From Clavelina lepadiformis (taxonomy: Eukaryota > Chordata > Ascidiacea > Aplousobranchia > Clavelinidae): 64,000 nt of DNA. The stretch spans positions 12,631,856 to 12,695,855 of the forward strand of contig NC_135246.1 of the NCBI RefSeq assembly GCF_947623445.1, read 5' to 3'. Positions 2,273 to 41,860 of the stretch are shown in pieces (positions within the stretch are counted from its first letter, which is position 1; each line of letters starts with the position of its first letter). The position numbers and the translations under genes are program-made. The notes beneath the pieces were generated by a model, which saw only the letters and a program-made list of their open reading frames with translations, was not told where the DNA came from and made no database searches.

Positions 2273-2507
2273 CGTATATGATGTGGTGTAACAAATATAA
2301 CCAACGACGATGCATCAGTTGTTAAATTTTGAAAAGGGAAAGACACAGGTCATATGGCTCCACAGAGACCTGAACTCGGTAACTACACATGTTGGTTGGG
2401 TCATCCTGAGTTTAATTGTTCTAGAAGTATCTTCCTCGACTATACAGAAATTGAATTGACCTGAAACCGTTCATCAGTATCATAACACTGAGATAAAAGG
2501 ATAAGTG

Positions 2508-2582
2508 ACTCCAACGTGATTTGAACACGAAATCTTCTCATCTGGATTGAGACACCTTACTGCTGAGCCACGTAGTCGTCAT
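2508..2582 (-). repeat. Second tRNA-like segment
   Basis: The minus strand reads as an A-box-like TGGCTCAGCAGTAAGG followed by a B-box-like GTGTTCAAATCAC, spaced as in a tRNA. It is unlike its two neighbours and is probably the head of another SINE family or part of a composite element. Folding is imperfect and no amino acid identity is proposed. Confidence 0.35.
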
Positions 2583-16528: not shown

Positions 16529-18725
16529 ATGTGTAGTAAATATGAATTATCAAGATCTTTTTCTCATTCTGTTGAACCAGTCTTTATACACGTGAAGCCT
16601 TCTGACATTAGGTAAATTTTGAATTAAAATGTCATGTTATTTATAGATTTAAAATTCTTAAAATTTATAAATATTTATAACAGCTTTCAAAATTTACCAA
16701 TTTTTACTTTTATAGGAAATTTTATGAAAGTCATTTTCTAAATTTTTCTTTTTTTGCAGACCCATAAAAGGAACTGTTTCAATTCGATTGTCAAGCGGAT
16801 GTGACGTTCTTGATCTTTTGCGTAAAGTACTGTTAGGTTTTACTACGATAGAGGAAATGACATATAAAAATCACGACGTCATGACAGTCACATTTGGCGA
16901 TGAAGAATACTGGGTTTTGGATGGACACAAACGTTTGTGGGTCTTACAGGCATTAGAAACTATGAGAAAACTTGAAAAGATAAAAGTCAAAGTAAGGTGA
17001 CTATGGAACTGCTTTCATAAGCCTTCTGTAGACCTGTAAACTGATAACTTCGTAACAACCTTTGTTTTTGTTTGGTTCTAAACATATACTTAGTTTTTCT
17101 GCAATTTTCCCAAGTAATGGTCACTCTAACTATTCCCGTAGGTAAGGCAAACTAAAGCGTGTGATTTTGCCGTTAAACGTAAAAACGTTGTCGTATTTAT
17201 TAATTACTTAGAAACATCGGTATACGGTATGGTATATATCATCATCTTTATCCTTGGATTAAGGAAAGTCTTTGCACGGATTAAATTCGGCAATAATTCC
17301 TCATCCCTGGAGCCTCGGTAACCGAACCAGCTTTTTTGCAAATTCTAATTGATGGACACATATATTATTGGTTTTCTTTTTTTGAAATTTTGTATTGTTT
17401 TGCCTGACATTTTTCACTGTTCATCAGACACGAACAAAATCTTGGTTAAAACCTTGAAAATTGTTTGGAGATGTACTAATACAAGATTTGTAGCCTTTGA
17501 CAAATTCTAAATTTTGAAGTTTAACTTTGATTAGTACTTGAGCTGTATAGGTGTTAAATATAGCCTCATATGTTGCTTAGAATATTCTGAGATGATGACG
17601 TAACCAAAAACCAGCTTCCGTCATACGTCCGTGTTTCTGATAAAATGCTTTGGAGGACAGTTGCCCACACCGAAAATCTTCCTTCTGCAGAGTGATAATT
17701 GTGCTCTTTAATAATTTGGGTAGACGTTTCTGTACTAGATTGCGATTTGAAAACGTCTTTTATGGAACCCCTAAAATGTTTTTATGGAATCTACTTTGGG
17801 AAACTCTAGCTTATACCAAAAATACAGTTTCGAACACAGCAGATCTTTGGAAGAATACCAAGACCAACATAAACTGAGAAAATGCTACTGGACAAAAAAT
17901 AACAGTTCAAAATTAAATTTGATTGATAATTCTGATATTTTGAGATATTTTTTGAGATTTTGAAAAGAAGAAGTTATATTAAAGATTGCGTTTTAATAGA
18001 AAATAGCCTATAACAAAGTATTTTTAGTTGGATTTTTAATTATAAAATTGGCAGTTTGCAATTCTCGATTTCTGGATTACTGTACAGCCAACCCCTCAGC
18101 TCTATTGTATGCAGCATGCTGAGACGCCATGCGTACAATACATTTTTAATCTTGTAACATATTTTGCAGGAAAGATCACAGATGGAGGGAGCAAATGACT
18201 TGTTTGAATCGGTCTGGAAAAGTCCAACTTCGATTTTCAACCACGTTAGCCAAGAAAAACTTCCACAAAAAACTTGTTGAACTTAAACGTGAGATACTGG
18301 AAAGAAGTAAGCGTCAAAGTATTTGAAGTTAGGGGACCAAAAAATAAGTAAACAACACAATCATTGCGAAAAAAAGTGTGCAAGTTACACACTCATGGTT
18401 GCCTACTTACACAACAGATTAACAGACTGCCAAGTATCAAAACAATGATATGAGGAAGCCAATGTTGTATCATTTATTCACAGATCAGGCTGGCTCTCCT
18501 CCACCGGCACATAGCAGGTTCTTTACATTCGACCGTTTAACGGTACCAAAAAGATTGGAAGAACAAGTCGATCGTCGTGAGAGATTAACAGGGATTTTGT
18601 CTTGGAACAAAGGCCCTTACAAGATCGATTATAAAATAATTGGAATGATTTTACTTATTTTGCTTCTCATCTCCATGTCAGTCATACACAAAAACATCGC
18701 AGCCGATGAAAAGACTGATGTTTAA
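16529..18725 (+). CDS. ParB/sulfiredoxin-like domain protein with C-terminal membrane anchor
   Basis: Four exons join in phase: 16529-16611, 16760-16996, 18170-18306, 18484-18725, giving 232 residues. Residues about 18-107 read like a ParB/Srx N-terminal fold: FIHVKPSDIRPIKG, then an EYWVLDGHKRLWVLQALE segment like the ParB 'GhhR' motif, then a basic KIKVKV strand. Sulfiredoxin has a comparable GCHR motif, but its catalytic Cys is absent here. The middle is basic and helical (KKNFHKKLVELKREILER). A hydrophobic segment at about 198-217 (IIGMILLILLLISMSVI) is followed by only about 16 residues, so the protein is probably tail-anchored with the ParB-like part in the cytosol. The second donor must be AG|GTGACT; the neighbouring GTAAGG would break frame. 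The fold is inferred from motif layout only, and no function is proposed. Intron 2 is about 1.2 kb and contains a SINE fragment. Confidence 0.7.
17225..17345 (-). repeat. SINE 3' fragment, copy 1
   Basis: This aligns with 58760-58860 through the shared AGTCTTTGCAC/CTCTTTGCAC, GGCAATAATTCCTCAT/GGCGATGATTCCTCAT and GGTAACC/GGTTACC stretches and the flanking (GGTAT)n tail. It lies in intron 2 of the ParB-like gene. Only the 3' end is recognisable. Confidence 0.5.
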
Positions 18726-29300: not shown

Positions 29301-32300
29301 GTCCAAGTTTCGCATTAACAGTAAACTGCATGTTTTGTTGATATATTTATTTTTTCTTGTACATTATCTCATTGTGTGCCTCACGCAAAAAATGAAAATA
29401 ACAGTGAGTTGAGACTTGGAAAAGGCTGGGAAGAACTGCACTGGTGCATAGGTAATCCAATTTTCCAAAATTTTATTTGGGTAGTAGACGGATGCAGTCC
29501 AAATATTTTGTGGTCTTAAACCTGGTGTAATGAGTATTTATTTCACAAAGCATACCTCGGGGTTAGGTAAATCTGGGAAATCAACAGCTAACCTGGCATA
29601 CACTCCATCTCTGGATCGAAAGTCTGGTATACCACATGACACTGACACCTTTTTGATAAAAGATTCATTTAAGTTATAAGACAACAAGCTACGCAATACA
29701 CACTCGTATATTGCCTGCAAAAAAATGTAAAGTCTCTGCTGCATGCAACAACCATAAAAAGAGATCACCAGAAACAAACCTACCCCAGCTCCAGTAAGAA
29801 CTAATATTTTTGAAGAAGATTTAATGAGTCTGATGACATCATCAAAGGTATTCACTTGAGTCAGCTTTGTACGACGTGGTGGTTCGCTGAGCATTCGAAC
29901 AAGCTAAAACAGATTTAAGTCTTAATAAGAATAGTGCCCCAATGACATTTTTGGATGCATATAAAATGTGAGTAAATTCCAACAAAGTTGCATTGAACGT
30001 AATCCTATAGAAATGACAGCATTGCACTCAGTCATAGACTCACCAATTTCCAAACAGTCCAATTGTCCACGTGTTCAGGGATGTTTGTTATATGAGGAAA
30101 CAGCTTATAAACTATTTCCTTCGGGTCTTTGTCGTTCACTACTTGCATTTGTATCCATTCAATCAGACCTAGACAAAGAACGAAAATTATAACACCTTTG
30201 CGGAGTGGTACTGCACTAATTAAATGGAAAATTAAGGAGAAATGCGCAATTGCTTTGTCAACTGTCCATCTCTAGGAACCTTCCCGCAAACGAATAGTCA
30301 GTATAGCCAAACTTTTAACTTCTAAGAAATAAGTCAATCCCGAAAAAAAAGTAAAACCTTTCACTCATATAGGGCGAAAGAGAGAGTTTCACCTTGAAAA
30401 TGGTGGTAAGTGACTAGTCATTGTGACTGCAACAGAGTGACTAGTCATTAAGCAAAAAATGTATTGCGAGTTGTATTGCAGTTTGTTTGTGTGATTTGTT
30501 TTTAAAGCTGGTCGAGTAATACTTGTGAGTTATATTTGTGTCTGATCTCGAGATTCAATGTAGAATTACAGCAAAAAACTACAAATTTATGACCTAGTGA
30601 CTAAATGTTACAGCGAGAGTATATTTGAAATAAAAAATTTGGCATGACACAATTTCTGAATATAACTTTTGGAGATGAACTATGAGACTCAAAAGTAAAA
30701 CAATTCACCACTAGGTGTAACAGATGGTTGCCAATCGCTCTCGCTTGCTTCTGAGTAAGTTGGACTGGCAGACCCTTGCGATTTCTCAAAAGAAGAAGAG
30801 CAGTTTCCAGAGTCTTCGGTATAATTTTGGGTATCCAACCTAACAAAGTTTAATGATTTTTGATTACTAGTTCGCAAATGAGCTAAAAGAATTGTTTAGT
30901 AAAGCAATACATATTTCTAAGCTATGCTGAAACACAAGATTATGTCACATAACTACAAGAAATTTTTACACAATGCCTTCTTTATTCCACATAAAACATT
31001 ACATTAAAATGGTTTGTTCCTCAACAGCTTTGTCATCGGATTTATAGTCAATCAACTTCGAACTTTCATCTTTTTGCTTTGGTGCTGAGTATAAATAAAA
31101 ACAAAGTTTAAAATTTTCAATTAATAATTAATAACTATTGAGTAACTAATGAGATATTTGCATCATATTCAACTATCTCACTTTATTGCATCCTACCAAC
31201 AAATCCAGACGCTTTGACAAGCAATTACAACATAAAAACCTTAATAAACATATACAAGTTGTACAAAAATAAAAGTACACTCTATGTAACCATATACAGC
31301 GAGACCTCGTTTATCCGAACCCCGAACAACCGGAATCCCCGTTATCCGACACAAAACTGTCGGGAATGGATTTTTTCCTATGCATTTTACCCCTTTAATC
31401 TGGAAACACCACTGTACGACTCCGACACAAAAGTTTTGGAACAAATGTGTTAAATAAATAGCAATAAAATCCAATAAACCGGATTATTATTAGTGAAGCG
31501 AAAATGATCCACGATTGTCCTAGATACAGTAGTTAGTTGACGAAAACAACAGCCGATTATTATCTACGAATAATAATGTTGCAGTTTCACTCTTTAAACT
31601 CCTACGCATACGCATACTTTGAATTGGAGTAAGGTGCATACTGCTCTTTGAACATGGTGCTCCATTCGCAAGATTGATTGATTTTTCGCTTAATTTTTTT
31701 TCGCGATAATCCGGATACCCCGTTAAACCGATTTTTTATGACGAAACGAAGTGGACCGGATTAATGAGTTCTGACTGTACCAGTAACATAATGATTAGAA
31801 CCAAAGTTACTGTCTATGGTCGTAACTCGTACATGTTACCCTAAAACAAAGACAGGGACAACTGAATACTTTCGACAAAAGTACATTAGATACACAAAAA
31901 GAGAATTTTTTTAAATAAAACAAAATAAAATTGGTTTTAATAGATATTTGATAGTAAGGTACATTAAAAAAATATAGCTGACATATTCTATCAGAGCATG
32001 CACATGGGTAGTTTTAAAATTTTTTATTAGTAAATTCACTCTTAATCTGCAAAACTCTTCTTTAAACATCACCAGAAAATATCAGGTAAACTTAACAAAT
32101 TATCTAAGTCACAAAGTGGTTGAAGACTTCGTCTACAATGCGTAGCAAACCCAAAAACGATCGGTATAAAAGGAAGTTGCAGGATTTTTTAAACAAACCA
32201 AACAAAATAATCACATCTCGGCTAACTTCGATTAGAAATAAGTAAAAACCAACGGTACATGCAAGCTAATGTTTGTTAATACATGCAATACATGTTAATA

Positions 32301-33608: not shown

Positions 33609-34120
33609 GGTAACAGCAGTAACAGCAGTAACAGCAGTAACAGCAGTAACAGCAGTAACAGCAGTAACAGCAGTAACAGCAGTAACAGCAGTAACAGCAG
33701 TAACAGCAGTAACAGCAGTAACAGCAGTAACAGCAGTAACAGCAGTAACAGCAGTAACAGCAGTAACAGCAGTAACAGCAGTAACAGCAGTAACAGCAGT
33801 AACAGCAGTAACAGCAGTAACAGCAGTAACAGCAGTAACAGCAGTAACAGCAGTAACAGCAGTAACAGCAGTAACAGCAGTAACAGCAGTAACAGCAGTA
33901 ACAGCAGTAACAGCAGTAACAGCAGTAACAGCAGTAACAGCAGTAACAGCAGTAACAGCAGTAACAGCAGTAACAGCAGTAACAGCAGTAACAGCAGTAA
34001 CAGCAGTAACAGCAGTAACAGCAGTAACAGCAGTAACAGCAGTAACAGCAGTAACAGCAGTAACAGCAGTAACAGCAGTAACAGCAGTAACAGCAGTAAC
34101 AGCAGTAACAGCAGTAACAG
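33609..34120. repeat. 9-bp minisatellite (GTAACAGCA)n, about 57 copies
   Basis: About 510 bp of head-to-tail GTAACAGCA with almost no variants; only the borders degenerate (AAAACAGTGG on the left, TAGTAAAAACAG on the right). Since the unit is a multiple of three, several frames on both strands stay open (Val-Thr-Ala repeats in one), which creates long artificial ORFs. The purity suggests recent expansion. Confidence 0.95.
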
Positions 34121-35603
34121 TAGTAAAAACAGTGATGATAGTTGGCAAAGACAAAAATCTAAGGGCTGGTAAGCACAGTGAAAGAGGTAGGCCTATGTTT
34201 TCAAGTATTTCTTGAAAGCACTAAAACAGAAAGTTTTAACACAGAAAATACATCAGCTGATGTAGAGACGCAAACAAAAGAGAAAAAATATTTTCTAATT
34301 TTCTTTGATCGAATAAAATTGTCCGGCCGCGGCGCGACGAAACAGACAATAATATCAAAGGAAACTGTGCCGCGAAGCAAGCTGATAACGATAAAAAATT
34401 GATTAGAAATGTTGTACCGTTTACATATGTACCCATTATTTTGGCGTCATTTATTCTGATATCAGATCGGAGTAATTAAGTACTAATGGAAATTAATTAG
34501 AAATTATCTTTTGTGTTTAGCAAGCTGGTATTAAGTCAATGACGCGAGTCATTGATCTAGTTCTAATCCACTAGAGTCACATTTTCGGATGACTTCACTT
34601 GACATGAGCCAAAGGTTCAAAATGACTACAATTGGCTTTGGTAAAATGCCCAAAATGATGCCATAGAATTGGAAACAACCATGAATTATCTACGGCAATC
34701 AACACACAACGCGTAGTGTGACGTTAGCAAACTTTTTCAAGTTGAACGCATTGATTTGACTAGGATTATATAATCATAAGTTCATAACTTATTCTGACTC
34801 GGCTTGACTCGAGTCAAAAATGACTTGATGTAAGTTATAACTGTACCGTGAAAAATATACGAGAAAAGGTTATAAAAATGCCCTAACGTTAATTTCATGT
34901 CTAAACATTTTTCAATAAATTTGCAATAAAATAACCAACGATAATTTTACAAGTTAAAAACATATTTTGCAAACTGAAAAATTCCGCAAAAATGAACAAA
35001 TATTTCAAAAAAGCACCAGCAAAGAAAAATATCATAGCTTTTAATACCAACAAGCAATTGAGCTATAGGTCTAAATAAGAAAAAAATTACAAACTGGTGA
35101 AAAAAAGCGGGAACGATAAAAGTTCCGGTTCCACAGTGATTGCACCACACAGAATAGCACACGACTGCAACAAACAAGTACTGTAAAACATAAGAAAAAC
35201 GCTACGTACATACCACAGAAAACAGTTAAATGATTTAGGAAAACATATTTAGTGTAAAAAGTGTGTTACACGCATAGATATAATGTGAACACTATTTTGC
35301 TTATAAATCATGATTATACTATATATTTGGTCACATGGCATCAAAATCGTTCTAAAAGGCGTTTCAAAATTGTACACTAAAAATTACCAGGTACTATTGT
35401 ACGAATAAATGTTAGATTTCATTTCATAATTTGTGCTTCACACTTTTTGGTCGGGCGACGGAGTGGCCAAACGTGGAAATCAAGCAAATTCCATTATAGT
35501 TCGGTCATTCTGTGTTCGTTGTTTTCATTTATTTTCACAAGTGGGGGAGAAAATGTTGCCTCCGTTCCCAGGCACTGAAACCCTAGGTATGCCTCTGATT
35601 CTG
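34121..35603. other. Spacer
   Basis: A 74-codon plus frame at 34178-34402 follows the minisatellite but has no linked exon. At 34530-34830 several GACTCGAGTCA- and TGACTTGA-like words recur and may be remnants of an inverted repeat. No gene can be supported. Confidence 0.35.
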
Positions 35604-40999: not shown

Positions 41000-41860
41000 A
41001 TGACATCTCAAGAAAGTTGTGAGTCAGAAAAACCACATCCACTTGTGGTAAACGCCTTGTTTTTGAAATCTGTTTTATGTATCAATATAAATATAAAGTT
41101 TAAGTCCGCCTGTAGATTCAAGCGATCATCTTCAGTAATCCGCTTTTTTCCGTCTTAGCAGCAAAATCAAAGCGATACCAGGCTGCCTTTACAAGAAGTC
41201 ATCCTTGAAGAAAGGAAAATGACAGATTCTACTGACGCATCAATACCGGTTCTGCCAATGGGAGTTGCTATCAGTCTGTGTGTAGTAAACTGTCTTTTTC
41301 CTGGATTAGGTAAGTTGAAGTTTGCTGCGTCCACGTTAATGACACCAACTGATATAGTTGAACTACGTTTGTTAATAATTATACATGGCGGTAATTATGA
41401 AAGCTTATGGTGTTTCCCTTTTGTGATTGTTTTAGATCAAAATGATAGTTTTGAATTACCGCTGTGCGATACACTTTTTTCAAGGAACTATCATTGCTTC
41501 ATTTACTATTTTTTGTTGCGCAATTGTCCCCGAGGGCCATGACAAATTCAACGTGTTCTGCATTAACTTCTTGATTGGATGGGCGCAGCTCATAACCGTA
41601 CCGGTACTTTTTGCTGGCTGGATTTGGAGCATAACTTGGGGAGTACGTTTTGTTTCAATAGCCGGTAGGTTACACTATTGAATGATTATACATGCATTTA
41701 ATTCCTTTTAATAATATTTTTATTCTTTTGACGTTTGATATTTTTACCATTATAACTATTTTAAGCTAAAAGTGGCAATGTGGAAGAGTTGGTTGTCACG
41801 TCAGTTACAACACTACCATCAAAAAATGCCCGACAAACTTCGGTGGTTAGCAAAAATTAA
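41000..41860 (+). CDS. SPEC3/Stum-family membrane protein, gene B
   Basis: Exons 41000-41047, 41159-41309, 41485-41664, 41766-41860 join in phase to 157 residues. The domain matches gene A closely: LPMGVAISLCVVNCLFPGLG, TIIASFTIFCCAIV, FCINFLIGWAQL and AGWIWSITWGVRFVS. Intron positions and phases within the domain agree with gene A (Gly split before TIIASF), so the pair arose by tandem duplication. The N-terminus is short and acidic, without the Pro-rich stretch of gene A, and the tail differs. It is likely a two-hairpin membrane protein. Role inferred from family members in cilia or mechanosensation only. Confidence 0.83.

Follow-up and report, generated by a model that had tools for sequence, protein, structure and literature searches.

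A strongly diverged ParBL1-related protein with an apparent C-terminal membrane anchor in the sea squirt Clavelina lepadiformis

The ParBL1 (Tox-ParBL1) domain has been described in bacterial polymorphic toxins and in several metazoans, with a motif [NT][RT][RT] of which the last two residues are mostly R and with a conserved N-terminal Ser/Thr. In the same paper, DGHHR is the motif of classical Tox-ParB and nuclease activity is offered as a possibility for such toxins (Zhang et al., 2012, PMC3482391). A 2025 survey of the wider fold gives sulfiredoxin as the commonest eukaryotic form, describes Noc as acting at the membrane and lists (L/F/I)G(K/R)G(L/F/I) as the ParA-binding motif of ParB; 'transmembrane', 'metazoa' and 'animal' are absent from that main text (PMC12704722). 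Here we analysed a gene in a stretch of 64,000 nucleotides (the window; C7:12631856-12695855, contig NC_135246.1, of a 209-Mb genome; positions below are those of the window) from the sea squirt C. lepadiformis. We class its product as related to ParBL1 within the ParB/sulfiredoxin superfamily, but not as a canonical ParBL1. The ParB/sulfiredoxin-like domain is well supported, and the protein appears to have a membrane anchor. At a probability of roughly 0.6, we favour a strongly diverged eukaryotic ParBL1 relative whose domain is shared with bacterial polymorphic toxins, and which would be cytosolic, tail-anchored and nucleotide- or phosphate-binding.

The four-exon model of the initial annotation was found exactly in the sequence: 699 bases encode 232 residues with a stop ending at 18725, all exon borders are AG/GT, the phase is kept throughout, and for each exon one of the six frames is open, always the modelled one. 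The claimed layout of VEPVFIHVKPSDIR, DGHKR and KVKV was also located in the protein. The features are as follows.

16529..16611, plus strand: exon 1, residues 1-28, containing VFIHVKPSDIR, donor GTAAAT
16760..16996, plus strand: exon 2, residues 28-107, ParB-like core (18-107 overall), donor AAG|GTGACT
16773..16775, plus strand: Thr33, paired in alignment A7 with the Ser of bacterial FTQDSI
16920..16934, plus strand: DGHKR motif, residues 82-86, aligned to the family DNRR and longer by one residue
18170..18306, plus strand: exon 3, residues 107-153, with MTCLNRSGKVQLR aligned to the family FTTxNxGxxxxxR (not significant alone)
18484..18725, plus strand: exon 4, residues 153-232, a basic stretch and then the predicted membrane segment, stop at 18723-18725
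18630..18686, plus strand: predicted membrane segment, residues 202-220, hydropathy 2.46

When the whole protein was compared with its own genome, two weak places were obtained elsewhere, L006 (E 0.27, 27% identity, residues 18-133) and L007 (E 6.3); exon 2 alone hit its own locus and a single further place at E 0.32. L006 and L007 each form one open frame (134-135 aa) laid out as IRF...YYSxDNRRLYxxRVL...FTTxNxG, and the genome holds a family of about 130-aa proteins with the pattern IRFTQDSI...YYSLDNRRLYVFRVL...FTTxNxG. With L007 as tblastn query, 37 places on seven contigs were found including itself (20 at E <=0.001, 24 extending to query residue 110 or further), many of them tandemly clustered; these are places rather than genes, as two-exon members are counted twice. 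The initial annotation had considered ParB-fold proteins to be few in animals, which does not hold here in view of these 37 places from one paralogue query and of the metazoan ParBL1 already listed in PMC3482391.

Kinship with this family was evaluated with a profile of 15 paralogues (A2), from which the window protein was excluded. By hhalign, the A2 profile matched the window protein at a probability of 92.9 (E 3.7e-7, residues 18-133), and its score of 48.4 compares with a mean of 12.1 and a maximum of 17.8 among 60 shuffles in which residues 1-195 were permuted and the remainder was kept. Nearly all of the score came from residues 1-107, which alone reached 44.9. The window gene is thus, as computed from sequence, a divergent relative of the in-genome family, and behind it stands an animal gene family of a known kind that is constrained where tested: dN/dS came out at 0.33-0.44 in each of the four pairings made within a set of five close paralogues (genes recur in three of these pairings, and the window gene is not in the set). 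The Pfam scan of 16 family members gave no Pfam family matched by more than one member, and the A2 profile matched 0 PDB chains. In a tree the window protein stood on a branch of 3.11 without a supported neighbour, and its introns seem to lie at other places than those of the two-exon paralogues, whose intron positions were inferred from frame breaks. The expanded ParBL1-like family lies in tandem clusters (L006-L037 and L053-L067 on contigs C1, C2, C3, C4, C5, C6 and C9 of the genome, G000). Within it, a subfamily (L017, L019, L021-L023, L025, L026, L029-L031, L036) carries a further Cys motif (GCH...HCxC or one like it) that is possibly metal-binding; most of its members appear to have an intron directly ahead of the DNRR strand.

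Relatives of the in-genome family occur in bacteria, where they sit at the ends of polymorphic-toxin-like proteins. Exon 2 was aligned with five ParBL1-like rows (four bacterial, one from a viral contig). The alignment runs from FTQDSI through the strand that follows the motif, and nine positions are shared: G41, V44, L47, G54, D75, L81, D82, R86 and L87. An AlphaFold2 model of one bacterial domain (L042) had a pLDDT of 80.8 and a pTM of 0.75, and the first 35 Foldseek rows for it were ParB, Noc, KorB, sulfiredoxin, SbnI, free serine kinase and 1vk1. The family is therefore related to bacterial ParBL1-like domains with a predicted ParB-type fold, and the superfamily first guessed for the window protein finds support through its profile match to this family. 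The model resembles SerK/SbnI free serine kinases in fold, at 5-12% identity; we know of no SerK/SbnI with a tail like that of the window protein. In L038, L042 and L043 a DUF7660 gene, which may encode an immunity protein, directly follows the ParBL1-like frame; by eye, comparable frames of about 83-102 aa lie downstream in L039, L040, L044 and L045.

On motif and kinship, rather than on the alignment of the authors of PMC3482391, the animal family corresponds to ParBL1. In the window protein Thr33 aligns with the Ser of FTQDSI, presumably the Ser meant in that paper, and the animal profile matches it. The motif differs from [NT][RT][RT]: H84-K85-R86 is found instead, only the last Arg is kept, and DGHKR is closer to classical DGHHR than to DNRR. 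The likeness to Tox-ParBL1 thus consists of the probable ParB-type core, the N-terminal Ser/Thr and the last Arg of the motif, to which may be added the FTTxNxG-like C-terminal stretch of the Tox-ParBL1-like sequences found here; the window protein differs in its four exons, basic middle and predicted tail anchor, and is without a toxin delivery part.

Several observations weigh against the favoured reading. The profile of the five bacterial and viral-contig rows gave the window protein a score of 16.1 and shuffles up to 23.3, and exon 2 modelled alone reached a pLDDT of 46.8. Because the motif departs from DNRR, this profile is blind to the protein, the exon 2 fold is not confident and the neighbour in the tree is unsupported, we call the protein ParBL1-related and not a canonical ParBL1. 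Residues 108-232 alone have no match to the family profile. The exon 2 donor AAG|GTGACT is imperfect, and a donor AAA|GTAAGG after 16991, five bases upstream, shifts the frame of exon 3; the A2 profile favours the annotated exon 2/3 junction only modestly (48.4 versus 43.2-43.8). Moreover, five exon 3 ends are indistinguishable to the profile (46.9-48.8); with two of them (232 and 226 aa) the frame runs on into the membrane segment. That segment was seen in no paralogue examined.

The predicted single hydrophobic segment near the C-terminus is present by hydropathy, with the highest 19-residue value of the protein (2.46) at residues 202-220, slightly displaced from the 198-217 given at first, and 12 residues of net charge -1 remain after it. 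The basic middle also stood, with a net charge of +12 over residues 108-200. A strongly hydrophobic segment followed by a 12-residue tail of net -1 would suit the endoplasmic reticulum (ER) better than mitochondria. Alternatively, the gene may encode a soluble ParBL1-like protein without an anchor, through the GTAAGG donor, translation ending in exon 3 or another exon 3 end, the hydrophobic frame at 18423-18725 being foreign or nothing. A 141-aa protein that scores nearly as high on the profile (43.8) can arise from the donor after 16991, and with some ends of exon 3 the product is 142-160 aa long and lacks the membrane segment. The exon 4 part was found only at its own place in the whole-protein search of the genome, and a search of 12 two-exon paralogues, 11 of which were parsed (L028 gave no parsed frame), showed no tail exon in common. 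In the 1.3-1.4 kb downstream of these, hydrophobic frames occurred in 7 of 11 at scattered offsets, indicating that such frames arise often. However, the annotated junction carries the family alignment to residue 133, and exon 4 joins exon 3 in phase (donor AA|GTAAGC, acceptor CAG). Exon 4 was compared with 118 other open frames in the window, each 75 aa or longer and some of them perhaps coding; a satellite and the gene's own stretch were left out. Its codon score was reached by 3.4% of them, and the hydropathy of 2.46 likewise by 3.4% (4 frames). Exon 2 had the same 3.4%, exon 1 19% and exon 3 13%, in a codon test that is rough since its frequencies came from 11 paralogue open frames. Two in-phase joins from the donor after 16991 (220 and 202 aa) likewise include the membrane segment. 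We consider the soluble protein unlikely, though it deserves serious attention, and the tail anchor plausible but unproved, as it depends on the predicted exon 2/3 donor and exon 4.

The very long branch, the changed motif and the imperfect donor might also point to a ParBL1-family pseudogene in decay. However, all four exons are open and in phase and the nine positions common with distant rows are retained in exon 2, so that decay seems very improbable to us.

The DGHKR motif raises the further question whether a classical ParB or sulfiredoxin relative was gained separately, not via ParBL1. It resembles the DGHHR of classical Tox-ParB given in PMC3482391, and PHROG 4715 (ParB-like) was obtained at E 0.046 over residues 75-111. 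However, PF02195 (ParB_N) gave no row for the protein at E 10 and 0 matches in the genome, in a scan that shows no sulfiredoxin either and so may be insensitive; there was no PDB sequence match, and the animal ParBL1-like profile lies far above shuffles. The catalytic Cys of sulfiredoxin sits in a GGCHR-like motif. Sulfiredoxin probably shares the fold superfamily, and the bacterial model resembles 6ky4 and 1xw3, but the window protein has Cys at 2, 42 and 118 only, none in the motif, and a predicted membrane tail; as first noted, it is no simple sulfiredoxin. ParB and Noc are alike in fold (via the bacterial relative) and in the GH[HK]R-like motif, but the ParA-binding motif is absent from the 232 residues by eye and the libraries recognised no helix-turn-helix. 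Separate gain of a classical relative is, in our judgement, highly unlikely.

The initial annotation had looked to a profile search for a confident ParB/Srx match. When the whole protein was run against Pfam, NCBIfam, PHROGs and the sequences of PDB, nothing reliable was returned; the match over residues 18-133 came from the in-genome family. PADLOC with exon 2 only gave nothing. Two weak Pfam rows, SLT_beta (E 0.13) and, over the membrane segment, Phlebo_G2_C (E 0.053), fell short of the cut-off and were set aside. A hand-made consensus gave 10 pattern stretches in viral contigs and 79 in genome contigs, and window exon 2 gave 30 stretches in viral contigs, with 0 confirmed in each case. The window protein had no match in plasmids, the L042 domain had none in phages up to E 0.01, and 10 phage records for L007 at E 8 were discarded.

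Under the favoured reading of a diverged, tail-anchored ParBL1 relative, the ParB-like domain would lie in the cytosol, tethered to an endomembrane such as that of the ER by the C-terminal anchor behind the basic linker. From fold and motif, the region of Thr33 and G83-H84-K85-R86 may bind nucleotide or phosphate, like ParB, SerK and sulfiredoxin. The protein would then act as a membrane-bound nucleoside triphosphate (NTP)-dependent switch or a phosphotransfer- or nuclease-like effector, not as a peroxiredoxin repair enzyme. By analogy with Noc, whose membrane binding is N-terminal, the anchor may restrict the site of action. A bolder and improbable extension is that a bacterial polymorphic-toxin domain grew into a large gene family in a chordate and that one member, its motif altered to a classical-ParB-like form, now works from an endomembrane as a tail-anchored effector or switch, for instance in self-defence there.

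Elsewhere in the window, a 9-base unit GTAACAGCA is repeated in 57 copies (33610-34126, 99% matching, several frames open). An open frame at 29538-29900 (minus strand) matches SIR2/DUF592 (sirtuin), with SIR2 at 23.6 bits, just under the cut-off of 24; another at 41159-41539 (plus strand) matches the Spec3 ciliogenesis protein (27.5 versus a cut-off of 27). An Rfam tRNA match of 38.4 bits at 2506-2577 (minus strand) was not called by ARAGORN.

The name of the eukaryotic ParBL1 family dates from 2012; of three papers containing 'ParBL1' in our literature search, PMC3482391 alone was, by title and abstract, about this domain, and no paper on a studied eukaryotic member was returned. If the anchor is real, a tail-anchored ParB-fold protein would be a counterpart in eukaryotes of membrane-linked NTP switches, Noc among them. 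In a sea squirt, kin to laboratory ascidians, the many copies, some measurably constrained and one apparently membrane-bound, make the function of the family testable.
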